Shown: positions 535 through 38,488 of the stretch, piece after piece
How positions within the stretch are numbered: the stretch's first letter is position 1
Layout: each line of letters starts with the position of its first letter
Assembly: GCA_902790215.1 (NCBI GenBank)
Contig: CADAQX010000018.1
Span: 871 to 40,731 of the forward strand
Direction: 5' to 3'
Length of the DNA stretch: 39,861 nucleotides
Source of the DNA: an uncultured Bacteroidota bacterium
Lineage (GTDB): Bacteria; Bacteroidota; Bacteroidia; Bacteroidales; P3
Made by a program: the position numbers and the translations under genes
Notes under the pieces: generated by a model
Seen by the model: the letters and a program-made list of their open reading frames with translations, nothing else
The model's database searches: none
Told to the model about the DNA's origin: nothing

Positions 535-1338
535 CTATACTCCCCAGCCGAGTTTCTGGTGAATGGCGGTGAAGAAACTTTGGTTGCCAAGGCGGACAAG
601 GCGTACTTTGAAGTCTTCGCGGCTCAGCCGTATTTCGGCGCCATAGGGCAGGTGCTTGCGGCGCGAGTCCATGCCGAGGCTGAACTGCTGCGGTGAGGGG
701 TGTGTGACCAACCGCAACAAGGCGGTGTCGGGCACGATGATGGGGCGCAGAGTGAGGTTGTGCACTCCGATGGGAGTGATGACAAAGCAGCCGCTGTCGG
801 GCGTTAGGATGGGGCCACCGCAGCTGAGTGAATAGGCGGTGGAGCCTGTGGGAGTAGCGACTATAAGACCGTCACCGGCGTAGTTGGCCACGAAGTCGTC
901 GCCGACAAAGAGGTCGGTACGCAGCAGGGGTGCATCGTCGAAACGGTGGAGGCTCACCTCATTGAGGGCGAAGGTGGCGAGAGTGTCGGCGTTGTGGTGT
1001 GCCTCGACATGGAGGAGGGTGCGGGGTTCGAGGGTGTAGCGCTGGGCAAGGAGGTCGGCAGCGAGGGTGTCGAGGTTGTCGCGCCCGGTGGTGGTGAGGA
1101 ATCCGAGGTGGCCGAAATTGACTCCGAGCACGGGGATGTCGCGGCTACCGATGAGGTGGACGGAGCTGAGAAGGGTGCCGTCGCCCCCGATGGAGAAGAG
1201 GAAATCGTAGGGGCGGTCGGGCAGCGAGCCGGTGACGATGTCGGTGTCGATGCCGTTTTTGTTCAAGATACCCACGAGACGGTCTATCTGCTGGCGCGAG
1301 TCGTCTTCGATATGGCGGATGTATAGGGCTATTAGCAT
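535..1338 (-). CDS. nadK: NAD kinase
   Basis: ATP-dependent phosphorylation of NAD to NADP in the cytosol. The 267-residue protein carries the diagnostic GGDGT motif (residues 51-55, catalytic Asp53), the GVNFGHLGFL block at 72-81, an Asn-Glu pair in the central LNEVSLHR block, and the ATPTGSTAYSLSCGGP segment that builds the NAD pocket. An in-frame extension to 1452 exists, but its 38 extra residues are basic, unlike the family, and would overlap the upstream gene; I therefore start at the Met followed by LIALYIRHIED. It lies 53 bp downstream of the T9SS cargo gene on the same strand and is probably the last gene of that run. Confidence 0.95.
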   Translation of the reverse strand: MLIALYIRHIEDDSRQQIDRLVGILNKNGIDTDIVTGSLPDRPYDFLFSIGGDGTLLSSVHLIGSRDIPVLGVNFGHLGFLTTTGRDNLDTLAADLLAQRYTLEPRTLLHVEAHHNADTLATFALNEVSLHRFDDAPLLRTDLFVGDDFVANYAGDGLIVATPTGSTAYSLSCGGPILTPDSGCFVITPIGVHNLTLRPIIVPDTALLRLVTHPSPQQFSLGMDSRRKHLPYGAEIRLSREDFKVRLVRLGNQSFFTAIHQKLGWGV

Positions 1339-1391
1339 TACTATTTGTTTTTTAAGCTTGTAGGATATATAGGGCTTATAGGTTTTATTCT

Positions 1392-2945
1392 TTATCGCAA
1401 GAGGAGGACGGTGCCGGTATAGGTTTTTGTGGTGCCGTCGGCGTGATGGCATCGAGCCTGATAGACGTAGGCTCCCTGCGGAAGGAGTTTGCCCGTGCGG
1501 GTGGTGCCGTCCCAGCAGTCGGAGAGCTGTGTGGTGGAAAAAATGCGCTCGCCCATGCGGTTGTAGATGTCGAGACGGTAGCCGTCGGCAAGGGGTGAGA
1601 CAAAGACGGGGCAGAAACGACCCACCTCGGGGTCGCCTCCGATGATGGTGTTGGGGAAATAAGCTGTGGGTTCGGACACTTCGGGCAGGGGAATCCGCAC
1701 GGTGTCGGACGAGACGGTGCGCTGGTCGCAGAGGTCGGGGACGTCGAGACGATAGACATAGGCGCGGGCGGTACGCTGGATGTCGCTGTCGGTGTAGGAG
1801 AAGAACTGCTGCGGCGTGGGCGCAAGGCTTCTTGTGAGTTCGGCAATCTGCACAAAGGGCGAGGGAGGGTTGTCGTTGCCTTTTACGGTGCGGCGCATGA
1901 GGCGGCAGTCGGCTCCCTGGAACTCGGGGTCAACCTCGAAGTCGAGTATTATGGCCGGTGCTGTTTCGTCGTATTCGGCAGCGGTGATGCGGACATACTC
2001 GGCGGCGGCGGATTGGTCGAAGCGGAAGGTGTGAACCCGTGAGTAGGCGATGAGACTGTCGTTGCGGGAGAAGACGGCAAGGTAGGCATGGACTTGGCGC
2101 ACGGCGAGGTCGGGGACATCGATGTCGAAGGCAAAGGGGCCGTTGGGGCCTGCGGTGTGGCATTGCCCTTCGGTGTCGCCGTCGATTTTATAGTGTATGT
2201 GGTAGGAACCTACGCTGTCGGGCATGTTGATGTAACGGTTCCACGAGCAGTGCAGCCGGCGGGAGCAGGGTTCGGCCGAGAGGTGCAGCACGGGGTTGTG
2301 GTAGTAGGGCGTGAGGGGGCTGGCTTGATAACAGCTGTCGAAGGCAAGGATGCGGAAGGAGAACTCGGCCTGTGCATTTTCGTCAAGGGTGAGGTCTTCG
2401 CGGCAGAGGTACTGGGTGTTGAGCCGTCCCCAGACGGTGTCGTAGTCGCGGCAGGGGGAGCCCATGCAGATGTAGTAGCCCATGACATCCGTGTCGGGGC
2501 TGGGTTCCCAGCTGAGGCGCACGCGGTTGAGGAGGGTATCGACGGTGCAGAGGCGCAGCGTGCAGGGAGCGGTGGGGATGTTGTCTTGATAGAAAAGACC
2601 TGCAGTGTCGGAGGGGATGGGTTGCGCTGCGGTGTCGCGGGCGAGGAGGCAGTAGCTTACGGTGTCGGCACAGATGACGCGGTGGAGGGTGTCGGTGTAG
2701 TGTGTGTCGGCAAGGGTGGCCAGGAGCGTGAAATCGGTTTGGTCGGGGAAACGACGATAGAGCTCATAGCTCTGGACATCAGGCAGACGGTTCCAGCACA
2801 AGTCGCCCACATGATGGCTCACCACAACGGCGCGAGTGAAACGAAGGGCGGCGGTGTCCTGCGCGGCGGCGGGCACGACAGCCGTTACCGCAGCGATGAG
2901 CAGCAGTAGATGATTTGCCGTAATATGTGCCTTGCGGGGGTTCAC
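1392..2945 (-). CDS. Secreted protein with a T9SS type B (gliding-motility-type) C-terminal domain
   Basis: The 517-residue protein begins with a Sec signal peptide: a basic start, a Leu/Ala-rich core at about residues 11-27, and an Ala-Ala-Ala-Gln cleavage region. The middle looks like fibronectin-III or Ig-like beta-sandwich modules, with recurring LSW and YRLD strands. The last ~85 residues match the type B sorting domain: YFPNT start, then YRLDIYNRMGERIF, DCWDGT, GKLLPQGAYVYQ and a final short strand. Such domains send proteins through the outer membrane via type IX secretion (family knowledge). The passenger's function is unknown. It sits 14 bp downstream of the ABC exporter, so it is probably co-transcribed with envelope genes. 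The coding strand is C-rich. Confidence 0.85.
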   Translation of the reverse strand: MNPRKAHITANHLLLLIAAVTAVVPAAAQDTAALRFTRAVVVSHHVGDLCWNRLPDVQSYELYRRFPDQTDFTLLATLADTHYTDTLHRVICADTVSYCLLARDTAAQPIPSDTAGLFYQDNIPTAPCTLRLCTVDTLLNRVRLSWEPSPDTDVMGYYICMGSPCRDYDTVWGRLNTQYLCREDLTLDENAQAEFSFRILAFDSCYQASPLTPYYHNPVLHLSAEPCSRRLHCSWNRYINMPDSVGSYHIHYKIDGDTEGQCHTAGPNGPFAFDIDVPDLAVRQVHAYLAVFSRNDSLIAYSRVHTFRFDQSAAAEYVRITAAEYDETAPAIILDFEVDPEFQGADCRLMRRTVKGNDNPPSPFVQIAELTRSLAPTPQQFFSYTDSDIQRTARAYVYRLDVPDLCDQRTVSSDTVRIPLPEVSEPTAYFPNTIIGGDPEVGRFCPVFVSPLADGYRLDIYNRMGERIFSTTQLSDCWDGTTRTGKLLPQGAYVYQARCHHADGTTKTYTGTVLLLR

Positions 2946-2959
2946 TGGAGCGTTAATGT

Positions 2960-4765
2960 TTAAGTGAGTTTTTGCAACTGTACAAGCTGTTCGTAACGGC
3001 CGTGAAGGTTAATGAGCTGGTCGTGGGTGCCCGTTTCGACGATGCGTCCTTGCTCCAGCACCACGATAAGGTCAGCATGGCGCACGGTGGAAAGGCGATG
3101 GGCGATGACCAAGGCGGTGCGCCCGGAGAGGAGTGTGTCGAGGGCTTGCTGGACGAGGGCCTCGCTCTCGGTGTCGAGGGCACTGGTGGCTTCGTCGAAG
3201 ATGAGGATGTCGGGTTCGGAGAGGATGGCGCGGGCGATGCTGATGCGCTGGCGCTGCCCACCGCTGAGGAGGGCGCCTGAGTCGCCGATATAGGTGTCGT
3301 AGCCCTCGGGCAGTTGGAGGATGAAGTCGTGGGCATGCGCCGCACGGGCTGCTGCCTCAATCTGGGCATCGGTGGCGTGAGGCATACCATAGGCAATGTT
3401 GTTGCGGACGCTGTCGTTGAAGAGGAATGTGGTCTGTGCCACTACTCCGATATGCCGACGCAGCGAGGCGATGCGGTAGGACTGGATGGGCTGGCCGTCG
3501 AGGAGAATCTGGCCGGAAGTGGGCTCATAGAAACGCATGAGGAGGTCGGCCAATGTGGATTTGCCGGAGCCGGAACTGCCCACAAGCGCCACATTGGAGC
3601 CTTGGGGGATGACGAGATTGATATGGCTGAGCACATCGGTGCCGGGAGTGTAGGCAAAGCAGAGGTCGCGGAATTCAATCTGTTGGCTGAGTCCTTTGAA
3701 GTCGCTGGCTTCGGCGGGGTCGGCCACAGCCTCGGGTTCGTCGAGGAACTGCTGCAGCCTGTCAACACATGCGCGGCCTTTCTTCATCTGCGAGATAGCG
3801 GTGGTGAGCTCTTTGGCGGGCGGTATCATGAGCACGAACATCATGATGTAGGACACGAAGAGTTCGGGAGTGATGCCCGAGTCGCCGTTGATGACCATAT
3901 AGGAGCCGAAGAGGATGATGGCGATGACCACGCAGTTGCCCAGGAAGTCGCTCACCGGCGAGGAGAGATCGACGCGGCGCAGCACTCGTGTACGCAGGCG
4001 TGCATAGGCGGCGTCGGCTTTCTGGAAACGGCGGTTGGAGAAGTCGATGGCAGTGTAGGCTTTGATGACCTTGAGGCCAATGATGGTCTCTTCCATGAGC
4101 GACATGAGGAAGGAATTGCGTTCCTGCAGCTCGGTGGAGGCGCGACGAAGACGGTGGGTGATGCCCGATATGACAAAAGCCACCACAGGGAGCATTAGCA
4201 GCACAAAGAGCGTAAGCTTCACACTGATGTAGAAAAGCATGGCAGTGTAGAGCACGATGGCGGCAATGGCGGCAAAGAGCTGCTGAAAGGAGGCAAGGGT
4301 GCTTTCGTCGTACTCGGTCATATCGCCGGCAAAGCGCGAGAGGATGTCGCCACGACGGCTTTTGCTATAATAGGAGAGCGGCAGGCGCATGGCCTTGCGG
4401 TAGAGCTGTCCCCGGATGTCGCGGACGATGTTGCAGCGCACCACAGCCATCTGGACAACGGAGAGGTAACCGAAAACATTCTTGAGGGAGTAGAGCCCCA
4501 GAAGAATGATGGAGAAATAGACCAATGCGTGTTTGGGGCCAAAGGAGATGAGCCACACATAGAGCTGCTGCAACCCCTGGCTGAGAAGGCTGGCGTCGGA
4601 GGCAGGAACCGCCGAAGAGGTCACATCCGTCGGGAAAAGTATCTTGAGGAAGTCGGCCACAGAAAGGGCTGTAGCCATAGTGAATATCACCGAGAGCAGC
4701 ATGAAAAAGCCATACGCCGCAAGGCGTATGGCGTATGGCTTCATGTGTTGTAAGGTGAATGACAT
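2960..4765 (-). CDS. ABC exporter, fused permease and ATPase (MsbA-like)
   Basis: This 601-residue half-transporter has an N-terminal membrane domain with about six helices (residues 12-315) and a C-terminal nucleotide-binding domain. The latter has Walker A GSSGSGKS at 396-403, Q-loop Gln444, signature LSGGQ at 500-504, Walker B ILIFDE at 520-525 with Glu525, and switch His556. The architecture is that of the MsbA/lipid-flippase and multidrug exporter group. In this envelope gene context (murA nearby) lipid A core export is a reasonable guess, but a drug exporter cannot be excluded. It starts 8 bp after purB. Met8 is an alternative start. Codons 12-19 contain a perfect 10-bp inverted repeat. 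Confidence 0.9.
   Translation of the reverse strand: MSFTLQHMKPYAIRLAAYGFFMLLSVIFTMATALSVADFLKILFPTDVTSSAVPASDASLLSQGLQQLYVWLISFGPKHALVYFSIILLGLYSLKNVFGYLSVVQMAVVRCNIVRDIRGQLYRKAMRLPLSYYSKSRRGDILSRFAGDMTEYDESTLASFQQLFAAIAAIVLYTAMLFYISVKLTLFVLLMLPVVAFVISGITHRLRRASTELQERNSFLMSLMEETIIGLKVIKAYTAIDFSNRRFQKADAAYARLRTRVLRRVDLSSPVSDFLGNCVVIAIILFGSYMVINGDSGITPELFVSYIMMFVLMIPPAKELTTAISQMKKGRACVDRLQQFLDEPEAVADPAEASDFKGLSQQIEFRDLCFAYTPGTDVLSHINLVIPQGSNVALVGSSGSGKSTLADLLMRFYEPTSGQILLDGQPIQSYRIASLRRHIGVVAQTTFLFNDSVRNNIAYGMPHATDAQIEAAARAAHAHDFILQLPEGYDTYIGDSGALLSGGQRQRISIARAILSEPDILIFDEATSALDTESEALVQQALDTLLSGRTALVIAHRLSTVRHADLIVVLEQGRIVETGTHDQLINLHGRYEQLVQLQKLT
4709..4732 (-). repeat. Perfect 10-bp hairpin inside the start of the ABC exporter gene
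   Basis: The arms GCCATACGCC and GGCGTATGGC surround a 4-nt loop, falling in codons 12-19. The neighbouring bases repeat part of the arm. In the mRNA this would fold about 33 nt after the start codon. It may be only codon coincidence in an Ala/Tyr/Arg stretch. Confidence 0.6.
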
Positions 4766-9663: not shown

Positions 9664-10542
9664 CTACAGCTCCATTAATTTCAAAAACGCTGATGGATAA
9701 GGGGTTTCAAACGCCAAACGCTTGCCGGTCACAGGATGGTAGAACCCCAGTCTGAAGGCATGGAGCGCCAGCCGGTTGATAGGCGAGATATCGTCTTTGT
9801 AGCCATACATTGGGTCGTGTACTACGGGATGTTTTTCCTCCCGCAGGTGCACACGTATCTGGTTTCGCCGTCCTGTGTCCAGTCTGAGCTCCAGCAGCGA
9901 ATAACGACGGCTGGTCTGCACTACATTGTAGTGAGTCACTGCCAGTTTGCCGCCATTGTCGGTCGGAGACGACAGCACACAGTATTCCCCGTCGGTGAGC
10001 CATGAGCGGATGGTTCCCTTGGGAGGATCTACTTTTCCCCATGCCACTGCCACATAGGCGCGGTCATACACAATCCCCTTCCAGTCGGCCTCGAACCGTT
10101 GAGAGACCTGCTTCGACTTGGACACAACCATCAGTCCCGACGTATCGCGGTCGAGTCTGTGTACAATGTGGGCATGACAACTCTGGTGCGTTAGATACAG
10201 ATATCTATTCAATACCGTGATAACAGTCTGCTCCGTGCTCTTCTTGCTGTAGGACAAAAGACCTTCATGCTTATTCACCACAAACAGGTGTTCATCCTCA
10301 TACACAATATCCAGCTCGCGTGGTTTGAAGCGCTCCTTATACCCGGCTTTCTCAATGGTGACCTTCATGCCCGGTTGCAACGGATAGTTGTATTGTGTCA
10401 CCTTTCGGCCATCCACACACACACTGTGAGTCAGCAATTCCTTCACCTTCGACCGGCTGGTGTCGGGCATCTGCTGCATCAGAAAACTGAGCAGCTCACA
10501 AGAGGCTTCAACTTTATATTCTTTTTGTTTCACGTGAAACAT
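9664..10542 (-). CDS. RluA-family pseudouridine synthase
   Basis: Converts uridine to pseudouridine in rRNA or tRNA. The 292-residue protein has an N-terminal S4-like RNA-binding region (about residues 12-65, SRSKVKELLTHS...VCVDGRKV) and the catalytic motif HRLDRDTSG at 128-136 with Asp131 as nucleophile. The C-terminal half contains GRRNQIRVHL, typical of RluC/RluD relatives. The target site cannot be told from sequence. The first codons (MFHVKQ) are exactly the bases of a perfect parS palindrome, so this coding start is constrained by, or was built from, a centromere site. Met22 is a possible internal start but would cut into the S4-like region. Confidence 0.9.
   Translation of the reverse strand: MFHVKQKEYKVEASCELLSFLMQQMPDTSRSKVKELLTHSVCVDGRKVTQYNYPLQPGMKVTIEKAGYKERFKPRELDIVYEDEHLFVVNKHEGLLSYSKKSTEQTVITVLNRYLYLTHQSCHAHIVHRLDRDTSGLMVVSKSKQVSQRFEADWKGIVYDRAYVAVAWGKVDPPKGTIRSWLTDGEYCVLSSPTDNGGKLAVTHYNVVQTSRRYSLLELRLDTGRRNQIRVHLREEKHPVVHDPMYGYKDDISPINRLALHAFRLGFYHPVTGKRLAFETPYPSAFLKLMEL
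10526..10541. other. parS chromosome partition site (perfect match)
   Basis: The 16-mer TGTTTCACGTGAAACA matches the broadly conserved ParB-binding palindrome at every position. It overlaps the start of the RluA-type gene, whose ATG begins at 10542 on the minus strand. ParB-parS loci cluster near replication origins in most bacteria. No parA or parB gene is in this window. Confidence 0.88.
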
Positions 10543-10628
10543 TTTTTTAGGTTATCAACAAGTGTTTATCTACTTTTCAACAGGGTCTCCTCCCCTACTC
10601 CACCGGTCCCGTTTCGATGACTGAAAAC
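10543..10628. other. Short gap with two DnaA-box-like sites beside parS
   Basis: Between the pseudouridine synthase and the editing protein there are 86 bp. They contain TTATCAACA at 10552-10560 and TTTTCAACA at 10574-10582, both on the plus strand, one or two bases from the classic DnaA box TTATCCACA and identical to boxes in the 12.1-13.0 kb gap. No promoter of the TAnnTTTG type is clear here. Confidence 0.45.
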
Positions 10629-11120
10629 TCAATACAAATCCATAAATTCATACCTGTTTCCTATGCTTTCTATAAACTTCAGCATATCGCTGTTGCTTAT
10701 CACCAGCGAGGCGGTATTGTCATTCGGATGAAAACTGACTTTCGGCGCATCCAACAGCTTTCTGTCTACAAAAAGGATTACCTCGTGATTCACATCGTTA
10801 ACCAGCGTAAACAGCGACACCGACCCAGGCTTCACACCCAGATACCGCATCATGCGCTCCGGCGAGGCGAACGAAAGCTTACCCTGGTGCAACTGGTGCT
10901 CAATCTCGTGAATATCCATGTTGTGGCGCGCGTCCATGATGACAAGATAGTGTTTGTTTCCTTTATGGTTGCGGAAAAACAGATTCTTGCACAACACAGT
11001 GCCCTCGCCGCGATAAAACTGCGAAGCAATCTCAATAGTGGGAGCCTCGGGATGCTCATAATAGTCAAACCCTATCCCCTGTTGCTCCAGATAGTCGTAA
11101 ACCTGCTGCTGTCCTCTCAT
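10629..11120 (-). CDS. Prolyl-tRNA editing protein, YbaK/ProXp-ala (PrdX) type
   Basis: The 163-residue free-standing editing domain is expected to hydrolyse Ala mischarged onto tRNA(Pro). It has the YbaK-fold landmarks: YEHPEAPT near the N-terminus, CKNLFFRNHKGNKHYLVIMD with Lys45-Asn46 at the positions used for deacylation in ProXp-ala, and GVKPGSVSLFTL at 95-106. The length fits the PrdX subfamily. Its ATG overlaps the nadA stop in an ATGA arrangement (4 nt), so the two are translationally coupled. The link to NAD synthesis is probably only operon convenience. Confidence 0.88.
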   Translation of the reverse strand: MRGQQQVYDYLEQQGIGFDYYEHPEAPTIEIASQFYRGEGTVLCKNLFFRNHKGNKHYLVIMDARHNMDIHEIEHQLHQGKLSFASPERMMRYLGVKPGSVSLFTLVNDVNHEVILFVDRKLLDAPKVSFHPNDNTASLVISNSDMLKFIESIGNRYEFMDLY

Positions 11121-12064
11121 TTAATGATACCCAATTGTCTCGACATGTCAAGCATCCGCAGTATGGGAGTCTTGGCCTTTTCGATTACCTCTGCATCCAT
11201 AATGATTTCGGGTGTCTCATCACGCAGGCAGGCATAGAGTTTCTCCAGTGTGTTTTGTTTCATATAACTGCAGTCGGCGCAATTGCACCCTTCCTTCGCT
11301 GATACGGTCAGGAACTCCTTGTCGGGGTTGTTCTTGCGCATCTCGTACAGGATACCCGTCTCAGTGGCAACGATAAATTTCTTTTTATCAGACTTTTCAA
11401 TATAAGTAAGCATAGCCTTTGTACTGCCTACAAAGTCTGCTACCTGCAGCACGGCACCGTTGCATTCGGGATGTGCCACAACCACAGCGTCGGGATGTTC
11501 GGCGCGCATTTTCAAAATGCTTTCAGCCCGCATTGCATCATGCACCATGCACACTCCGTCCCACAAAAGCATATGTCGGCCAGAAACACTGTTGATGTAA
11601 CCACCCAGGTTCTTGTCGGGCGCGAAAATGATTTTCTGGTCTTCCGGCAGCGAACGCACCAGTTTTTCAGCATTTCCCGAAGTGCAAATGATATCGGACA
11701 TAGCTTTGATTTCCGCTGTGCAGTTGATATATGAAATCACGATGTGGTCGGGATGCTCAGCCTTGAACTTGGCAAAATCCTCCCCTTTGCACGACTCGGC
11801 CAGTGAGCAGCTGGCTGTCATATCAGGTAGCAGTACCTTGCGCGAAGGATTGAGAATCTTGGCGGTTTCAGCCATGAAGTGTACGCCACAGAAGACAATA
11901 ATGTCGTTGTCGCATTTTTGTGCCATCTGAGCCAAGGCCAAACTGTCACCAATGTAGTCCGAAAGGTCCTGTATCTCCTCTCTTTGGTAGTAGTGGCCTA
12001 ATATGACGGCATTTTTTTCTTTTTTCAAGCGGATAATTTCGCTCTTTAAAAATTCAGTGTTCAT
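11117..12064 (-). CDS. nadA: Quinolinate synthase
   Basis: Condenses iminoaspartate with dihydroxyacetone phosphate to quinolinate in de novo NAD synthesis, using a labile [4Fe-4S] cluster. The 315-residue protein shows the three-fold family repeats and candidate cluster ligands Cys86 (TASCSLAESC), Cys201 (AHPEC) and one Cys of the EGCNCADCSYMKQNTLEKL block, most likely Cys265. I start at MNTEFLKSEI; the 22-codon upstream extension overlaps the likely promoter box at 12128-12135. It is the first minus-strand gene left of the candidate origin. nadB and nadC are not in the window. Confidence 0.96.
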   Translation of the reverse strand: MNTEFLKSEIIRLKKEKNAVILGHYYQREEIQDLSDYIGDSLALAQMAQKCDNDIIVFCGVHFMAETAKILNPSRKVLLPDMTASCSLAESCKGEDFAKFKAEHPDHIVISYINCTAEIKAMSDIICTSGNAEKLVRSLPEDQKIIFAPDKNLGGYINSVSGRHMLLWDGVCMVHDAMRAESILKMRAEHPDAVVVAHPECNGAVLQVADFVGSTKAMLTYIEKSDKKKFIVATETGILYEMRKNNPDKEFLTVSAKEGCNCADCSYMKQNTLEKLYACLRDETPEIIMDAEVIEKAKTPILRMLDMSRQLGIIK

Positions 12065-12127
12065 AACCTGCTTATTTATATAATAATCAATCCTTCCACA
12101 TTGAAATGGGGACATGTTTCCAAATTG

Positions 12128-12135
12128 CAAATATA
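12128..12135 (-). promoter_or_regulatory. Probable -7 box for nadA
   Basis: On the minus strand this reads TATATTTG, matching the Bacteroides -7 consensus TAnnTTTG. No clear TTTG partner lies 19-21 nt upstream. The leader to the nadA ATG would be about 57 nt. Confidence 0.45.
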
Positions 12136-12136
12136 C

Positions 12137-13008
12137 ATATTTTTTTCAGATTCCATATTGATTTTGTTTTAATTCAGCAGGTTTAACATTTCTGCGTTCT
12201 TATTCTATACCTAATTTTGACAAGTTTCATCCTTTATTCCCGGCCAACACAACTTTTCGGTAAGACACTTGCCACTTCGCGCGGAATTTACTTTTTATTC
12301 TGTTAAGGGTTACGCCAACTTTCCTCAGTGTTCAGATAAAGTCACATATTTGTCCCCAACTTACCTCTGTATGCTTTAAAGGCTCGATGTTGCGTCGTTC
12401 TTTATCTTATCGTTTTTCGATATGTTTCCCCCATTTTTCCCTTTCTGAAACGGAAAAAGAGTGGAAAACGATCGAATAACGATCGAATAAATGACGACGC
12501 TACTATTACTCTACATATACGGTACAGCCTTTTTTCTTACTTGGCATTTCCCTGGATTGTCTTGTTGTTTAATAATTCTAATATTATTGTTTTATAATCT
12601 TATTTTTAGTTTTATGTTTGTCAATTCTGTTGATAATTATTTTACGTTTTTCAGCACTATTTTTTTGCTGACATCAATTAACAATTTATCATTTGCAACT
12701 CTTTTTGATTCAACTCAGATTGCAGTTATCAACCGTTTGTTAGTTTTAGATTAACACGGTTTTGTTAATACACTCAGGTGAAGTTAGAGGCCCATTTCAG
12801 TGTTGAAAAAGGGTAATGAAAACAGGGTTTATCAACAGTTGGAAAGGCAATTTTTTTCTTTCACTTTTTTTCTACAGGGTTGTCAAACGGTTGTGAACAT
12901 TCTTTGTTGATAATATTTAAAGATTTAATAGTTAGTGAATAAGAAAAGAAAATAGTCTTTATGCCATGATTTTTATTTTTTAATTCTTAATTATTTACGG
13001 TTTTGTGG
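12137..13008. other. Candidate replication origin (oriC) in an AT-rich gene-free gap
   Basis: No convincing gene is present; an 87-codon AT-rich hydrophobic open frame (12491-12754) looks like chance. The gap has DnaA-box-like sites: TTATCAACA at 12829-12837 (+), 12628-12636 (-) and 12905-12913 (-), TTATCAACC at 12726-12734 (+), and TTTTCAACA at 12801-12809 (-). The very AT-rich stretch around 12565-12720 could be the unwinding element. An 11-bp unit ACGATCGAATA is tandemly repeated at 12468-12489. Genes point away on both sides, and a perfect parS lies about 2 kb to the left. The identification is inferred, not shown. Confidence 0.55.
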
Positions 13009-13016
13009 TATCTTTG
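13009..13016 (+). promoter_or_regulatory. Probable -7 box for rpiB-deoC
   Basis: TATCTTTG matches TAnnTTTG, 32 bp before the rpiB ATG. I see no good TTTG element 19-21 nt upstream; that stretch is pure A/T. Confidence 0.55.
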
Positions 13017-13048
13017 CAATGACTTTATATTTTTAAACAGTCTTTGAT

Positions 13049-13492
13049 ATGAAAGAAATAATTGCTATGGCATGCGATCATGCAGGCTTTGAACTAAAAG
13101 AGGTTGTTAAGAAACATCTATCTGAATTGGGATATGATGTAAAAGACTATGGAACAAATAGTAGTGAGAGTGTTGACTATCCCGATTTCGCACATCAGCT
13201 GGGTCATGCCATCAACAGTGGCGAGTATAAAAGAGGTATTGTCATCTGCGGCAGCGGCAACGGTGTGCAGATGACTGTAAACAAATACCCTGGCGTGCGC
13301 TGCGCTCTGTGCTGGAATACCGAGATTGCACACCTCGGACGACAGCACAACGACTGCAATGTGGTGTCGCTGCCTGCGCGTTTCATACCGCAGGAAACGG
13401 CGTTGCAGATTGTCGACGAGTTTTTGAACACTCCGTTTGAAGGTGGCCGCCACCAACGCAGGGTGGAGAAAATCAGCAAAATAATAAAGTAA
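13049..13492 (+). CDS. rpiB: Ribose-5-phosphate isomerase B
   Basis: Interconverts ribose 5-phosphate and ribulose 5-phosphate in the pentose phosphate pathway. The 147-residue protein has the RpiB/LacAB features: Asp10-His11 near the N-terminus, catalytic Cys67 in ICGSGNG (anion hole), and RQHNDCN with His100-Asn101. The start MKEIIAMACDHAGFELK is typical of the family. It is followed 4 bp later by deoC; together they feed deoxyribose and ribose phosphates into central metabolism. It is the first plus-strand gene right of the candidate origin. Confidence 0.95.
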   Translation: MKEIIAMACDHAGFELKEVVKKHLSELGYDVKDYGTNSSESVDYPDFAHQLGHAINSGEYKRGIVICGSGNGVQMTVNKYPGVRCALCWNTEIAHLGRQHNDCNVVSLPARFIPQETALQIVDEFLNTPFEGGRHQRRVEKISKIIK

Positions 13493-16808: not shown

Positions 16809-17609
16809 TCAGCTTTTGTAATAGCTGCGCAGGATATCTACGTTCCAGTTGCCGGGGATGAAGCGTTTGAGAATGACCGAGAGCTTCTGTTCGAGGTTGG
16901 CCACGCAGTAGCGCAGGTGGGGGTGCTTGGCATTGACTATTTGCTCCACCTTTTTGGCCATATATTCGGGTCTCAGGCCGTTTATTTCCTCTTTCTCGAA
17001 CCGTTCCCTCACCTGGGAGAAGATAGGGCCGTAATCGGGGTCTTTCAGCGTCTCCTCGGAGTTGGTGCGCACAGCGGTGAACCCGGTGGCAAAATCGCCC
17101 GGCTCAACGATGGAGATGGAGATGCCGAAGCGTTTGACCTCGGCGCTGAGAGCCTCGGAAAAGCCTTCTATGGCAAACTTGGAGCAGCTGTAGAACCCTT
17201 GGTAAGGGATGCCCTCAATACCAGCTATTGAGCTGAAATTGATAATCTTGCCATAGTGTTGTCTGCGCATGTACGGGAGGACTTTCTGGCAGACGTTGAC
17301 ACAGCCGTAGAAGTTGGTTTCCATCTGCAGTTTTATCTCGTCCCAGGAGGTGAGCTCGAGGGCTCCGCCCAGGCCCATGCCGGCATTGTTTATCAAGACA
17401 TCAATGCGCTTCTCTTTGTCATATATATCTTTGATTATTTGCGCGATGCGGTTGGTGTCGCGAATGTCGCCCTGCATGTATTTAATGGTGTGGTGTTCCA
17501 TTTGTCTGCGGCAGATGCCATAGACTGTGTGTCCGTGTTGCGAAAGCCTTTCAGCAATCGATTTTCCAAAGCCGGAGGAGGCTCCTGTGATGATGATTAC
17601 TTTGTTCAT
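16809..17609 (-). CDS. Short-chain dehydrogenase/reductase
   Basis: Classical SDR of 266 residues. It has the cofactor motif TGASSGFG at 8-15, NNAG at 74-77, the catalytic Ser at 126/127 in INFSSIAG, and Tyr140-x-x-x-Lys144. Arg34-Arg35 after the second strand suggests NADPH preference. The longer frame up to 17708 runs through its own promoter box, so I start at MNKVIIITGASSG. It converges on the spt-GNAT operon, making a 3-ketosphinganine or 3-ketoceramide reductase an attractive but unproven role; many unrelated SDRs look the same. Confidence 0.88.
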   Translation of the reverse strand: MNKVIIITGASSGFGKSIAERLSQHGHTVYGICRRQMEHHTIKYMQGDIRDTNRIAQIIKDIYDKEKRIDVLINNAGMGLGGALELTSWDEIKLQMETNFYGCVNVCQKVLPYMRRQHYGKIINFSSIAGIEGIPYQGFYSCSKFAIEGFSEALSAEVKRFGISISIVEPGDFATGFTAVRTNSEETLKDPDYGPIFSQVRERFEKEEINGLRPEYMAKKVEQIVNAKHPHLRYCVANLEQKLSVILKRFIPGNWNVDILRSYYKS

Positions 17610-17649
17610 AGCAGTTATTTTGGCCGTTGTACGGCTGATATTACGGGTG

Positions 17650-17657
17650 CAAAGGTA
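17650..17657 (-). promoter_or_regulatory. Promoter of the dehydrogenase gene
   Basis: On the minus strand TACCTTTG matches TAnnTTTG, with ATTG (3 of 4 bases of TTTG) 19 nt upstream at 17677-17680. The transcript would start just before the ATG at 17609. It is back to back with the promoter of the DUF4175 gene. Confidence 0.6.
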
Positions 17658-17697
17658 CGAAATAAAATTGAATTGGCAATAATAGAAGTTTTTTTTG

Positions 17698-17705
17698 TAT
17701 TTTTG
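17698..17705 (+). promoter_or_regulatory. Promoter of the DUF4175 gene
   Basis: TATTTTTG matches TAnnTTTG; a TTGG lies 21 nt upstream. The predicted transcript start is about 10 nt before the GTG at 17722, which excludes the longer upstream TTG frame start. Confidence 0.55.
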
Positions 17706-17721
17706 CAAGTTATTTCAAACC

Positions 17722-22438: not shown

Positions 22439-24322
22439 ATGAGGTGGTCGCCGTATGATGTAATTGTTGTTGGTGGTGGTCATGCCGGTGCAGAGGCTTC
22501 TGTTGCGGCAGCCAATCTGGGTGCAAGGACGCTGCTGGTAACATTGAATATTGACACGATTTGCCAGATGTCCTGTAACCCGGCAATGGGTGGTGTGGCC
22601 AAAGGGCAGATTGTCCGAGAGATTGATGCCATAGGCGGTTATTCGGGTATTGTGACAGACCGCTCCATGATTCAGTTCCGGATGCTCAATCTGTCAAAGG
22701 GCCCTGCCATGTGGAGTCCGCGTGCACAGTGCGACAAAGTGCAGTTCTCTCTTAATTGGAGGAAAGTTCTTGAAACGACGCCCTCTCTTTCCATCTGGCA
22801 AGATGAAGTCACGGACATTATCATTAATCAGGGCGTAGCGTGTGGGGTGCGTACAAGGATGGGGCTTGAGATACCTTCGCAAGCAGTAGTGTTGACGAAT
22901 GGGACATTTCTAAATGGTACAATCTACATCGGCGATAATTCGTGGGTAGGGGGTAGGATAGGGGAGAAGTCGTCGATGGGTCTTTCTGATAAATTAAAAG
23001 AATGCGGGTTCGCGGTTGACAGGCTCAAGACGGGAACGCCCGTCCGTATAGATGGGCGCACGATAGATTTCTCCAAACTTGTAGAGCAGCTGGGTGATAC
23101 TAATCCACAGCGGTTCTCATACTCGGACACTGCTCCGCTCCAACACCAGCGTTCCTGCTTCCTCGCCTACACCAACGTCCAGACTCATTCGGTGCTGCGT
23201 ACCGGTTTTGACAAGTCGCCGCTCTATACGGGGCGCATACAGGGGCATGGGCCGCGCTATTGTCCATCTATCGAGGACAAGATAGTCCGTTTCGCCGACA
23301 AGGATCGCCACCAGCTGTTTGTAGAACCGGAGGGCTGGTCGACAAACTCGTATTATCTAAACGGCTTTTCGTCATCGTTGCCTCTTGAGGTTCAAGTCGA
23401 GGCATTGCATACGATTCCGGGTTTTGAACACGCCGACATATATAAGCCGGGATATGCTATTGAATACGACTATTTTCCGCCAACGCAATTAAAATATACG
23501 TTGGAGACAAAGCATGTGGAGAATCTCTACTTTGCTGGCCAGATTAACGGAACAACGGGTTACGAGGAGGCGGCATGCCAGGGTCTCATGGCCGGCATCA
23601 ATGCTGTTCTCAAGCTGAAAGGCAAAGCCCCGTTTATTCTCAATAGGATGCAAGCCTACATTGGAGTGCTGATAGATGATTTGGTAACAAAAGGTGTCGA
23701 CGAGCCGTACAGGATGTTCACCTCGCGGGCTGAATACCGCATCCTGCTGCGGCAGGACAACGCTGATGTCAGGCTCACCCCGCTGTCTCATGCCATAGGT
23801 TTGGCTTCGGACGAGCGGATGAAGAGGGTAGAGGAGAAGAACCGATATACTACCATGCTAATCTCTACGCTTAACGACACTTCAATCAAACCTGCTGATG
23901 CCAATCCCTTTCTTGAGCAGTTGAACACTCCTGCGTTGCAGCAGCGTGTAAAATTGGCAAGCCTTCTTTTGCGCCCGGAAATAAATATAAAGCAATTGCT
24001 TTCCATCTCGCCAGACATGCAATCGTCTGTGGACACGATCCCTGAAGGTGTCAGGGATGATGCTCTTATTGCGGCAGAGATATTGTTGAAGTATCAGCGT
24101 TATATCGAAAAAGAGAGTGATGTGGCCAGCCGTATCCTCAAGTTTGAGGATGTCACGTTGCCGGATGGGTTTGATTACTTTTCTTTGAAGTCGCTTTCTT
24201 ACGAGGCGCGCGAGAAATTGACCAAGATGCAGCCAAGCACGATAGGCCAGGCGTCGCGCATAAGCGGTGTGTCGCCAGCTGATATTTCCGTACTTCTAAT
24301 CTATCTGCAGCAGTCGAAATAG
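22439..24322 (+). CDS. mnmG: tRNA uridine-5-carboxymethylaminomethyl modification enzyme MnmG
   Basis: FAD protein that, with MnmE, installs the carboxymethylaminomethyl group on U34 of several tRNAs. The 627-residue length is usual. The FAD dinucleotide motif is GGGHAGAEA at 12-20; the [13 protein letters not shown] and [17 protein letters not shown] blocks are family signatures, and [16 protein letters not shown] lies in the second FAD-contact region. In many bacteria mnmG (gidA) sits near the origin with parAB; here it lies about 10 kb from the candidate origin and is flanked on both sides by parS-like palindromes. mnmE and rsmG are not adjacent. Confidence 0.97.
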
Positions 24323-24327
24323 TTCTT

Positions 24328-24343
24328 TGTTTCACGGGGAACA
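24328..24343. other. parS-like palindrome downstream of mnmG
   Basis: TGTTTCACGGGGAACA differs from canonical parS at positions 10 and 12. It starts 6 bp after the mnmG stop. No gene is seen in the rest of the gap to 24552. Confidence 0.45.
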
Positions 24344-25802: not shown

Positions 25803-25875
25803 GACTAAGTAGCTCAGCAGGTAGAGCACATCCCTTTTAAGGATGGGGTCCAGGGTTCGAATCCCTGCTTAGTCA
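25803..25875 (+). tRNA. tRNA-Lys (anticodon TTT), copy 1
   Basis: A 73-nt cloverleaf: acceptor GACTAAG/CTTAGTC, D-stem GCTC/GAGC, anticodon stem CATCC/GGATG with loop CTTTTAA (anticodon TTT), T-stem CAGGG/CCCTG with loop TTCGAAT, discriminator A. CCA is not encoded. Confidence 0.97.
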
Positions 25876-25887
25876 CACTAATTGGCC

Positions 25888-25960
25888 GACTAAGTAGCTC
25901 AGCAGGTAGAGCACATCCCTTTTAAGGATGGGGTCCAGGGTTCGAATCCCTGCTTAGTCA
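25888..25960 (+). tRNA. tRNA-Lys (anticodon TTT), copy 2
   Basis: Identical in every base to copy 1, with the same four bases (GGCC) before it; the repeat period is 85 bp. Both copies share the upstream promoter and the terminator that follows. Confidence 0.97.
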
Positions 25961-25967
25961 CTGTTCT

Positions 25968-31031: not shown

Positions 31032-31079
31032 CCCAAATCAGTCATTAGGGTTTATGGCAGATTAGTATTTGTTTCAAGC
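31032..31079. repeat. Third copy of the MITE end, fused to the ATPase gene 3' end
   Basis: This 48-bp stretch matches 30648-30695 at 44 positions in direct orientation. It overlaps the last codons of the neighbouring ATPase gene: the TGA stop at 31074-31076 and the final Ala codon lie within or at the edge of the repeat. In the other copy the stop position reads CGA. Confidence 0.75.
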
Positions 31080-32276
31080 CAATGGTGTCTTTATCAGCCA
31101 ATCGACAGCGTTTACCTTTCGGATGCCGTTGATGTCGGTCACGAGGTCGCGATCGAGGGTGATGAGGTAGCGGCTATAATGGTCGCCAAGATTTCCGAAG
31201 GGGCGAATCTCGCGGGCAAGGGTTTCGGGTGAGTTATTCACGGTGTAGGACACCTGGTAATACTCTATCGTGTCCTGCCGTCGGGCGATGAAGTCTATCT
31301 CGGTGTCGTTCAACTTGCCGATATCCACCTTGTAGCCTCGGCGCAGCAATTCAAGATAGACAATATTCTCCAATGCGTGGGTTGCCTCAATCTGGCGGTA
31401 GCCGAGGACATTGTTGCGCAATCCCATGTCGGTGACATAGTATTTGTTCAGTGTCTTGAGATAGGCTTTGCCTTTGATGTCGTAGCGCACCGCCTTGTTG
31501 AGGATAAAGGCATTACAGAACATCTCCAAGTAACGTTCCACCGTCTCGTTGCTCACCTGACGTCCTTCTGCACGAAGGCTTTTTGCAATGGATGCCGGTG
31601 ACACCACACTGCCTATGGCCGACAGCACCATCTTCAGCACGTTCTCCAGCAGGGTGATGTCGCGGATGTCGTTTCGCTTGATAATGTCCTTTAGCACCAC
31701 GGTGTTGTAAATGCCGTCAAGGTAGCTGTTAATGACATTTTCATCTTTGATGCCTGCCAGGAATGGGAATCCCCCATACTTCATGTATTGTAAGAATAAT
31801 TGGTCGGGGTTTTCGTTAGGCCATGCGGATTGGTATTCGGCAAACGACAAGGGCAGCATCGCAACCTCCACATATCGTCCGGAAAGCAACGTGGCGAGTT
31901 CGGACGAAAGCATGTAAGCGTTGGATCCCGTGATGTAGATGTCCACGTTGTGGTCGATGGAAAGGCTCTCCACCGCACGTTCAAATTCGGCAACATTCTG
32001 CACCTCATCCAGTAGGACATAGTACTTCTCATCCGTCCGAATCTTCGATACCACCTCGTCATATAGCGTCTTGTAGTCCTTGACGTTGTCGTAACGAGCC
32101 GATTCGAGGTTGATGCTGATAATCTGTTTTGACGCCACGCCGTTCTTTTTGAGCCAGTCGTCATATAGCATCAGCAGTGTGGACTTGCCACATCGGCGAA
32201 TACCCGTGATAACCTTTACCACAGGCTTGTCCTTGAATGCGATTAGATGCTTCAGGTATTCATCTCTTGCTATCAT
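31074..32276 (-). CDS. AAA ATPase with DUF4143 C-terminal domain
   Basis: The 400-residue protein has an AAA_14-type domain: Walker A GIRRCGKST at 25-33, Walker B YYVLLDE with Asp90-Glu91, and the sensor strand DIYITGSNA at 112-120. A winged-helix-like middle follows (SPASIAKSLRAEGRQVSNETVERYLE). The C-terminal DUF4143 part contains ENIVYLELLRRGY and EIDFIARRQDTIEYYQVS, resembling a PD-(D/E)xK nuclease core with Gln in place of the Lys. Such ATPases are abundant in Bacteroidota; the function is unsettled. The 3' end coincides with a repeat end. One of three related genes in this region. Confidence 0.9.
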   Translation of the reverse strand: MIARDEYLKHLIAFKDKPVVKVITGIRRCGKSTLLMLYDDWLKKNGVASKQIISINLESARYDNVKDYKTLYDEVVSKIRTDEKYYVLLDEVQNVAEFERAVESLSIDHNVDIYITGSNAYMLSSELATLLSGRYVEVAMLPLSFAEYQSAWPNENPDQLFLQYMKYGGFPFLAGIKDENVINSYLDGIYNTVVLKDIIKRNDIRDITLLENVLKMVLSAIGSVVSPASIAKSLRAEGRQVSNETVERYLEMFCNAFILNKAVRYDIKGKAYLKTLNKYYVTDMGLRNNVLGYRQIEATHALENIVYLELLRRGYKVDIGKLNDTEIDFIARRQDTIEYYQVSYTVNNSPETLAREIRPFGNLGDHYSRYLITLDRDLVTDINGIRKVNAVDWLIKTPLA

Positions 32277-32348
32277 ATTCCTGTCTTTTTGCGGATATAA
32301 ACGCAGAAAATGATTTTTTATTGTACTTTTACATCTATAGCCGTAAAA

Positions 32349-34406
32349 TTATTGTCCGAAGATGTCGGATTGTTTCAGTAGTCTTATGGTGTGGGTCTTG
32401 CCGTTGGCGGTGGTGAGGGTGAGGAGGTAGGTGGCTTGGGGGCGGGAGGTGAGGTCTAATGTGTATTTGCCGTTGCCTGCGGGGGTGAGGCGGACTTCCT
32501 CGCGGCGGCCTTGCATGTCAGTGAGCCACGCTTTTGCGACTCCATTTTCAATTTTCAATTTTGAATTTTCAATTTCAATTGTGACTCTCTGCCGGAAGGG
32601 GTTGGGATAGGCCACGAAGGCGTTACCGTCCTCCACCACCTTGATGCGCACGTCGCCCGTGTCTTGAGGACCAGTGTATACGTAAGGGGTCATAAAAGAA
32701 GTGTCAACATACTTAGCAATGTATGCTGTACTACTATTAGTGCAATTGAGCGAAAGGTCACCGAAGGTCATGTCTGTGGTTGTATATCCACAGATATAAA
32801 GAGCACTATCCCTCAATGAGAGGCTGGTTCCACATTCGGATGTTTGTGTTATGGAATTTAAATCGATGTATTGCAATGGATGACCTTGATAGTCCCAAAT
32901 ATAAACACCTTTACCCATTTTTCCATGTTCAATACTAATGTCTTGGTTAAGACATTGAATGTTGTCTTGATATGCAATCGGGGCAAAAACACGATTATTT
33001 CTACATTCAATTGTAGAATGATTAAATATTTTTCCAGAAAAAAATGTCCTTGTCGAAGAATTTGCATTCCCATAAGTGATATAATTCCCTGATTCTTTAT
33101 CAAAACGTAATATGATTGCGCTTTTCCTCAGTTCAATAACATTATTATCAACAAATAGAGGTTCATTGCTATCATTGTTGACGGTAGCCGAAACAAACAA
33201 TGCGTTGGAATCTTTGTCAATACAAATTGCATGAAATAGATTGTGCCTGTCTAATACAGAAATACCATTTTCCAATACCCCATAGTCTATTTGCTTGATA
33301 TAAATAGGAGACAGGTCGCTATCATATTTGGCAAGAAATGTATTCATGTAAGAGTTTATGTGTAACATCATATCAGGGGCATCCTGTATGGAACATGTAT
33401 CCTCACTGGTTGTTCCTGCCATATATGTACAAAGATATATACAATCTGATGAATCAATCTTCATCTGTCCAAGTGTTTGGTATGCAGTCCACGGTAAGTT
33501 CCCTTCAAAAACATATTGAAAATGTAGTAGGCTGTCAAAATGAGGAGAGAACTTTAGCAATCTGAAATTTAATGAAGAAGGCGTGTTTTCGGGGTGTATA
33601 ATGAATTTCTTCTGTCCGTCAACAATAAACATAACCCCAGAAATCAATCCATTTTCTACAGAATAGTACTGAAAATCTTGTTCTTCAAGTACTCCAATCA
33701 TATCTACCGGTACATGCCCAATATAGATGTTCCCTCGTTTGTCCACACAAAATGGGCCTTGCTGAAAAGCATCATTTAAAATATACACTGAATCAGGCAG
33801 ATTTCCACTCTGTCTATCAAACGTAATAATATTATTATCATTATCGATATAAGCAGTTTGTAAAAAGTGATGTTCTACAACGTTGCCATCCAAATCAAGA
33901 ATAGCCACAACTGTTGCTATAGGATAGGTGATACCGCTTTGAGGGGTAAGATACGATGCATTCGCTCTTGTAATAAGAGTGTCAAAAAAATAAAGATAAT
34001 CATTTGTTCCTCTGGGAATATTCACATGCCCCATGACGTACAGGGAAGAGTCACCTATCAGTTGCATTGATGTAATGTTACATGGGTTGTATTGATTGGC
34101 GTGCAGTGCCTTTGACCACAATATTTGACCATCAGACGAAAACTTAATAATAGTAGCATTAGGATTATTGTTTCCACTACCATAAGGAGGGAACGGTAGC
34201 AGGTCATGTCCATCAATGGATGCACCATTGGCAAATTGCCCAGCGACATAGAGGTTGCCATGGGAGTCGGTCACAGAACTGACGATGTAGTTCCATAACT
34301 CACCTAGTCGTTCATTCCCAGAGTATGTCTTCACCCAGTCGAAGTGTTGGGAGAAGGCGGGGAGGGAGGCGGCGAGGAGGATTAAGAGGGAAATGAATTT
34401 TTTCAT
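32349..34406 (-). CDS. Secreted beta-propeller-like protein with T9SS type A sorting domain, paralogue 1
   Basis: The 685-residue protein has a signal peptide MKKFISLLILLAASLPAFS, SBBP-like propeller repeats (DSHGNLYVAGQF..., then KFSSDGQILWSK and similar), and a C-terminal Por secretion tail: FVAYPNPFRQRVTIEIE, a strand, MQGRREE, GKYTLDL and TYLLTLTTANGK. The last motif directs type IX secretion and often surface anchoring. It is a close paralogue of the gene at 36361-38439: the two share near-identical signal-peptide and C-terminal DNA but a diverged middle. The linker IENSKLKIEN is encoded by an AT-rich repeat. Confidence 0.9.
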   Translation of the reverse strand: MKKFISLLILLAASLPAFSQHFDWVKTYSGNERLGELWNYIVSSVTDSHGNLYVAGQFANGASIDGHDLLPFPPYGSGNNNPNATIIKFSSDGQILWSKALHANQYNPCNITSMQLIGDSSLYVMGHVNIPRGTNDYLYFFDTLITRANASYLTPQSGITYPIATVVAILDLDGNVVEHHFLQTAYIDNDNNIITFDRQSGNLPDSVYILNDAFQQGPFCVDKRGNIYIGHVPVDMIGVLEEQDFQYYSVENGLISGVMFIVDGQKKFIIHPENTPSSLNFRLLKFSPHFDSLLHFQYVFEGNLPWTAYQTLGQMKIDSSDCIYLCTYMAGTTSEDTCSIQDAPDMMLHINSYMNTFLAKYDSDLSPIYIKQIDYGVLENGISVLDRHNLFHAICIDKDSNALFVSATVNNDSNEPLFVDNNVIELRKSAIILRFDKESGNYITYGNANSSTRTFFSGKIFNHSTIECRNNRVFAPIAYQDNIQCLNQDISIEHGKMGKGVYIWDYQGHPLQYIDLNSITQTSECGTSLSLRDSALYICGYTTTDMTFGDLSLNCTNSSTAYIAKYVDTSFMTPYVYTGPQDTGDVRIKVVEDGNAFVAYPNPFRQRVTIEIENSKLKIENGVAKAWLTDMQGRREEVRLTPAGNGKYTLDLTSRPQATYLLTLTTANGKTHTIRLLKQSDIFGQ

Positions 34407-34722
34407 AGGATTTTGAAAATTGAAAGTTGAAAGTTGAAAATTATAATGTTTTTTGACATACCCCAGTATTTTGAGGAGGCGTTAGAGGGAAAGAGTATTC
34501 CGCTCTTCGGCTCATCGCCTCACTCGCTGGCGAAAGACTCACTGGGTCTTTCTTTCTCCCCTTTCAAAAGGGGACGATAGAGGGGATGTTTTTTTACATA
34601 CCCCGCTGCTATCGCAGCACCCCTCTCAAGAGGGGAGGGCTGGCGCGGTTGGGGAGTGTATGAGAATTAAGGTAGCAAATATGATTACTTTTTTCATTGT
34701 TTTAGGGTTTTATTTGTATGTT
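34407..34722. other. Intergenic region with small dispersed repeats
   Basis: No gene is evident. It contains tandem copies of a TTGAAAATTGAAAGTTG-like unit (34413-34442), two stretches ending in ACATACCCC after a T-run (near 34450 and 34590), and three hairpins: CCCCTTT/AAAGGGG (34558-34573), GCTGC/GCAGC (34605-34618) and CCCCTCT/AGAGGGG (34620-34635), the first and third with the same CA loop. Confidence 0.6.
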
Positions 34723-36183: not shown

Positions 36184-36197
36184 TTTGAAAAACGGTG

Positions 36198-36205
36198 CAA
36201 AGATA
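36198..36205 (-). promoter_or_regulatory. Probable -7 box for the DUF234-type ATPase
   Basis: On the minus strand TATCTTTG matches TAnnTTTG. It ends 14 nt before the chosen ATG, giving a very short leader. Confidence 0.55.
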
Positions 36206-36360
36206 CGAAAAATATTTGATACCACTTCCGTAACTATTATTTTTTTTAATTAACGGAGCCGCTATCGGTGCATTTCCGTATTTCTTGAGGGAGCAAATCA
36301 TATCTGAAATGATGCCAAAAGTGGTAAAAAACAATGAGATTTAGTGTAATATAACGCATA

Positions 36361-38439: not shown

Positions 38440-38488
38440 GGTACTGTTTTTTGAGGGTTAGTTGATTCTATAAAATTGATGGATGGGG

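Follow-up and report, generated by a model that had tools for sequence, protein, structure and literature searches.

A candidate chromosomal replication origin between nadA and rpiB in an uncultured Bacteroidales bacterium

Where does chromosome replication begin in an uncultured Bacteroidales bacterium known from a draft genome? The window analyzed here, a stretch of 39,861 nucleotides from that genome, contains a gap between the divergent genes nadA and rpiB, which a preliminary description had proposed as the chromosomal origin, oriC, located away from dnaA. The dnaA gene of this genome does lie elsewhere, on a separate contig (C11). Origins of Bacteroidetes are described as commonly far from dnaA, and for Prevotella intermedia OMA14 Ori-Finder had already placed oriC in a cluster of boxes that coincides with a GC-skew transition and is not beside dnaA (PMC4755523), so the suggestion that such a site would be missed by gene-neighborhood methods is not new. 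We consider it very likely that the gap at 12065-13048 is the replication origin of this bacterium, a reading that is well supported, chiefly by the evidence from relatives.

The gap and its predicted DnaA boxes

The gap spans 12065-13048 and has a GC content of 31.4%, in keeping with its description as AT-rich. To its left, the open reading frame of nadA (quinolinate synthase; 11117-12130, minus strand) likely begins with the ATG at 12064, as read by eye, which makes the gap slightly wider than previously stated; to its right lies rpiB (ribose 5-phosphate isomerase B; 13049-13492, plus strand). Beyond nadA follow genes for an aminoacyl-tRNA editing domain protein (10629-11120) and an RluA-family pseudouridine synthase, “rluD” (9664-10542), both on the minus strand, and the genes on this side are directed away from the gap back to position 535. 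On the right they are directed away up to 24322, the end of mnmG (gidA; 22439-24322, plus strand), a gene correctly placed about 10 kb away by the preliminary description, with one exception: a short-chain dehydrogenase gene at 16809-17708 is on the minus strand and points towards the gap. The earlier claim that genes are directed away for about 11 kb on both sides therefore holds on the left and is slightly overstated on the right.

The remainder of the window has some features of its own. Two tandem tRNA-Lys genes to the right of mnmG (25803-25961) both have the anticodon TTT and receive equal Rfam scores. The stretch 31074-39853 displays alternating genes, with two AAA_14/DUF4143 ATPases, a further AAA ATPase between, and two matches to Por_Secre_tail, the secretion C-terminal sorting domain, of which the one in the protein encoded at 36361-38439 falls below the Pfam cut-off. 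At 1001-4000 local GC is 0.60-0.61 and GC skew is strongly positive (0.22-0.31), unlike most of the window.

Five predicted DnaA boxes, the three exact and two near matches that had been reported in both orientations, are found in the gap. Exact copies of TTATCAACA, which is one base away from the classic DnaA box TTATCCACA, are located at 12628-12636 (minus strand), 12829-12837 (plus) and 12905-12913 (minus), and copies with one mismatch at 12726-12734 (TTATCAACC, plus) and 12801-12809 (TTTTCAACA, minus). The gap contains 3, 5 and 13 matches to TTATCAACA at zero, at most one and at most two mismatches; the corresponding means of 3000 dinucleotide shuffles are 0.02, 0.65 and 7.2, and the observed counts were reached by 0, 1 and 90 of the shuffles. 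Composition does not explain the boxes. The draft genome (2.98 Mb in 40 contigs) has 74 exact copies of TTATCAACA, against 48 of the reversed-word control, and outside the gap no two copies on the same contig are closer than 1,655 bp, the distance of a pair on C6. The genome-wide count that had been suggested as a check on clustering thus shows that no other gap of the draft clusters the exact word.

A candidate DNA unwinding element (12556-12627; A/T at 52/60) adjoins the first box. It includes a T-rich stretch that is kept in relatives, and the 50-bp duplex stability at 12570 is the weakest in the window, tied with that at 21124. Two features by which an oriC is recognized, an intergenic cluster of DnaA boxes and an A/T-rich unwinding element beside them, are hence both found in the gap, the second as a candidate whose melting is predicted.

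Alignment of the window with 10 relatives (n=11) shows that the right half of the gap is conserved and the left half is not. The tandem 11-mer at 12468-12489 that had been noted in the left half is real, but none was seen in the 10 aligned relatives; it is not a conserved part of the origin, is ruled out as an initiator repeat on this ground, and is probably outside the core. From the unconserved left half and 11-mer, we place the conserved core at about 12556-12990. A search for a DnaA-trio returned none that is convincing: the single candidate, TAATAGTAG on the minus strand at 12508, lies some 120 bp away from the closest box and is unseen in the aligned relatives, and a DnaA-trio adjoining a box was rejected as weak. 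The DnaA-trio is not known to be a universal feature of origins.

Conservation of the boxes among relatives

We extracted 37 sequences in which nadA and rpiB diverge, the window included. Duplicates (3), long gaps (4) and sequences from other families (3) were set aside. The remaining 27 gaps comprise 20 from the same genus, counting that of the window, plus 7 taken from close named genomes for which no genus is given; judging by their record titles, the named relatives derive largely from rumen and hindgut samples. An unbiased 8-mer scan of these gaps ranked TATCAACA first by z-score, with 26/27 gaps containing it against about 1.3 expected; since the gap sequences are related, this and the following counts do not represent independent events. 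In the 9-mer scan, the promoter words GCAAAGATA and ATCTTTGCA take the top two ranks and TTATCAACA the third, the exact word being present in 22/27 gaps (0.66 expected). The classic TTATCCACA occurs in a single one of the 27 and was rejected as the main box.

The difference lies in the sixth base. With A at this position, TTWTNAACA is seen 132 times in the 27 gaps and expected 12.5 times; with C, TTWTNCACA is mildly enriched (22 seen, 5.5 expected); G is seen 8 times (4.0 expected) and T 9 times (8.4 expected). The box is mainly TTWTNAACA and less often TTWTNCACA, and C at the sixth base is not its main form.

The 11-sequence alignment displays a footprint that consists of the T-rich stretch, a box, more boxes in both orientations and then the rpiB promoter, the left half having diverged beyond alignment. 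The word at 12628 is identical in 10/11 sequences, with L053 one base off; at 12801, TTTTCAACA is found in 10/11 and L111 has TTATCAACA; at 12829, TT[AT]TCAACA is present in all 11; and at 12905 the aligned relatives mostly have ATATCAACA. The likely rpiB promoter element, TATCTTTG at 13009-13016 on the plus strand, is presumably of the TAnnTTTG type, and TATCTTTGC occurs in 17/27 gaps, with 0.17 expected.

In 21 of the 24 stretches from the genus, that of the window among them, the densest 500-bp segment lies beside rpiB and contains at least four boxes with at most one mismatch. The three exceptions are L051, with two boxes, L070, with three, and L067, whose four boxes are 6 kb off, by parS. 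Among 19 stretches from outside the genus, five have a clear array by rpiB (L037, L041, L046, L047 and L214, the last from genome G189), L032 and L042 have four boxes there, a number that shuffles also reach, and the other 12 were found without an array by rpiB.

Words of this kind have been described in distant bacteria. TT(T/A)TCAACA was proposed as the DnaA box of mollicutes in a source that doubts the motif for phytoplasmas (PMC3322544); it likewise has A in place of C as its sixth base, but mollicutes are an unrelated phylum. One of the two DnaA boxes predicted on the linear chromosome of Cyanothece ATCC 51142 is TTATCAACA itself, in another unrelated phylum and in an organism whose circular chromosome uses TTTTCCACA (PMC4674748). 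The P. intermedia OMA14 origin resembles the present one, as do Bacteroidetes origins of the Ori-Finder/DoriC kind, in having a DnaA-box cluster at a skew transition away from dnaA, but its prediction differs in that the E. coli box was used with one mismatch allowed (PMC4755523). Among the matches listed from open-license PMC papers, we found none that names TTATCAACA as a Bacteroidota DnaA box and nothing on point that links nadA or rpiB with oriC.

GC skew and alternative roles of the cluster

Within the window, which comes from a draft genome of 40 contigs, GC skew has only a local minimum near 13 kb. Two complete chromosomes of relatives were compared. G189, from another family, is a single contig of 4.30 Mb in which rpiB (106,632-107,054) and nadA (107,739-108,698) are neighbors and dnaA is at 1.94 Mb. 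We analyzed 439 contiguous kb, chosen at a sign change of the sampled skew. Within these 439 kb, boxes are most densely arrayed in the rpiB-nadA gap: seven boxes with at most one mismatch in the 500 bp from 107,163, against 0.25 expected. Cumulative GC skew reaches its minimum at 87,341, 20 kb from the array, and the bottom is nearly flat between about 81 and 101 kb. Of 20 sampled stretches, 12 of the 13 between 0.1 and 2.2 Mb have positive skew and all six between 2.5 and 3.9 Mb have negative skew, and at 4.1 Mb it is zero.

G147, from a third family and likewise a single contig of 4.30 Mb, has six exact copies of TTATCAACA in about 400 bp (1,652,489-1,652,889; L188 12489-12889); the cluster was found among the first 100 of 169 copies listed, which reach 2.95 Mb, and a second cluster beyond is possible. 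Left of the cluster, 7/8 sampled stretches have negative skew; right of it, as far as 3.11 Mb, 7/8 have positive skew, and the three beyond are all negative. The rpiB gene of G147 is at 3.94 Mb, about 2 Mb away from the cluster, so in this chromosome the array, not rpiB, marks the skew switch. The origin neighborhood differs within the order. A skew switch at the homologous site or at a box cluster is thus seen in both complete relatives, within 20 kb in G189, and together with the exact-word cluster and the arrays by rpiB these chromosomes support the origin reading of the preliminary description.

Three long contigs from the same genus were also compared. Over 50 kb, all three have negative skew to the left of rpiB and positive skew to its right; over 20 kb this pattern is present in 1/3, with the right side higher than the left in 3/3. 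Their cumulative GC minima are 7, 4 and 94 kb from rpiB, no contig has its purine-skew minimum near rpiB, and keto-skew minima are 10-37 kb off. Within 8 kb of rpiB, GC skew gives no signal: the right side exceeds the left in 15 of 31 stretches, a 32nd (L060) having been left out for its short arm. The 50-kb pattern speaks for the origin reading; the missing signal within 8 kb, the 20-kb pattern, the positions of these minima and the stretches that lack an array by rpiB speak against it.

Clusters of DnaA boxes also occur at sites other than oriC. The gap could accordingly be a cluster that titrates or regulates DnaA, like E. coli datA or DARS, or a DnaA-controlled promoter region of nadA and rpiB, situated close to the true origin rather than at it. 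DnaA-controlled promoters are plausible here, because the dnaA gene of this genome has TTATCAACA about 320 bp upstream, an arrangement otherwise found in one (L173) of 28 other loci among the matches listed. We nevertheless judge this role improbable: the gap is the only cluster of exact copies in the draft and is adjoined by a stretch of weak duplex, its counterpart in G189 is 20 kb from the skew minimum, and the G147 cluster is at a skew switch even though rpiB is about 2 Mb away.

Still less probable is that a different regulator, for instance of NAD synthesis, acts at TTATCAACA here and that the conservation of the word reflects the control of nadA and rpiB. The word does differ from the classic TTATCCACA, and both genes do have their upstream regions within the gap. 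Against this, the G147 comparison, which covers rpiB, places the cluster at a skew switch far from that gene, and the word, one base off the DnaA box, recurs beside parS and upstream of dnaA; the mollicute proposal discussed above, with the doubt its source attaches for phytoplasmas (PMC3322544), also points to DnaA. Chance clustering in A/T-rich DNA, which the gap's 31% GC and the 90 of 3000 shuffles at up to two mismatches would allow, has a negligible probability given that the exact-word count was reached in no shuffle and that 22/27 related gaps contain the word.

As the origin of replication, the gap would work as follows. DnaA would bind the array of TTWTNAACA boxes in both orientations, whose sites and conservation are described above, melt the A/T-rich stretch at 12556-12627 and then load the helicase. 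Forks would depart both ways, co-directional with most flanking genes, and the parS site two kb to the left, paired with DnaA boxes, may tie segregation to the origin.

The parS site, the box shift and their meaning

The perfect parS that had been placed about 2 kb away is at 10526-10541, where it overlaps the start of rluD; 2.1 kb separate it from the closest box in the gap, and it is the only perfect parS in the genome. Allowing one mismatch adds just one site, a degenerate parS at 24328-24343, such that the two are on either side of the gap, a placement that favors the origin reading. A ParB gene is present on contig C2. An exact TTATCAACA, a predicted DnaA box at 10552-10560 (plus strand), is 10 bp from the perfect parS, and a second, weaker predicted box of this element, TTTTCAACA, follows at 10574-10582 (plus strand).

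A survey of 65 stretches (the window and two further sets, of 40 and 24) gave 28 parS sites. TTAT[CT]AACA is found within 120 bp of 24 of them, with 0.033 expected per site, at a spacing of 8-15 bp in 23 and of 35 bp in one; the four sites without a box are those of L047 and L064 and the second sites of L057 and L067. Of 32 stretches, 28 hold rluD, with parS at its start in 23 and an exact TTATCAACA there in 19. Where parS is displaced from rluD, the box has moved along in L063 but not in L064. The same-genus contig G015:C11 has three parS sites within 22 kb; of the two that fall inside stretch L057, one has a box beside it, and the third parS of the contig has no exact TTATCAACA nearby.

The pair is rare outside the genus. 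It was found in 5 of 393 genomes, the window's own included, and in one of the two same-genus genomes within that draw; it was therefore rejected as an order-wide feature, and the other four genomes probably have it by chance. Against the origin reading, the 439 kb of G189 and the 300 kb surrounding rpiB on the same-genus contig G029:C14 yielded no parS.

In Caulobacter, parS is bound by DnaA (Mera et al. 2014, as described in PMC6399470). The present element is similar in that a predicted DnaA box is at an origin-linked, centromere-like parS, where in Caulobacter DnaA acts (PMC6399470); it differs in that the predicted box is 8-15 bp from parS at 23/28 sites. The box groups at the gap and at parS both recur in the genus and are separated by nadA and the tRNA-editing gene. 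Bipartite origins with two box groups parted by a gene-length stretch are described in Epsilonproteobacteria (PMC5043019), but there the groups flank dnaA, unlike here. It is possible, if doubtful, that the origin is bipartite and that one half is a fused centromere-initiator, with parS and a DnaA box about one helical turn apart, at which DnaA would gate both segregation and initiation, a Caulobacter-like coupling that would have arisen separately in Bacteroidota.

The same joint reading holds, as tentatively, that the shifted box, with A as its sixth base, matches altered DnaA residues. The base-contacting residues of E. coli DnaA include R399, P423, D433, H434, T435 and H439 (PMC7561715), and the window's DnaA, mapped by eye, has Ala at the equivalents of 423 and 435. 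Both are Ala in 29 of 30 Bacteroidales DnaA sequences (window included), the best 30 matches of 149 genomes and hence the closest ones; L169 has Ser at both. The DnaA of G147 has Ala at both positions and also Asn at 433. The recognition motif was readable in 8 of the 11 full-length DnaA sequences of a comparison that included Actinomycetota and Tissierellia MAGs. The Actinomycetota MAG (L204) has Pro and Ser at these positions, yet three copies of TTATCAACA within its dnaA locus, and the Tissierellia MAG, also with Pro and Ser, has two TTATCAACA beside three TTATCCACA. Because these genomes carry the same word, the link between residue change and box shift, seen in sequence comparison, is only suggestive, and the residue change was not upheld as its cause.

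The probable origin is of an ordinary kind, origins far from dnaA having already been reported for Bacteroidetes (PMC4755523). Two of its features merit testing, namely the shifted box and the pairing of parS with a DnaA box. The analysis provides a concrete candidate origin, a box consensus and a candidate unwinding element for an uncultured Bacteroidales group, of use when growth rates are estimated from read depth. The box shift is testable against the DnaA recognition residues, and the parS-DnaA-box pair makes the licensing of segregation by the initiator testable outside Caulobacter.
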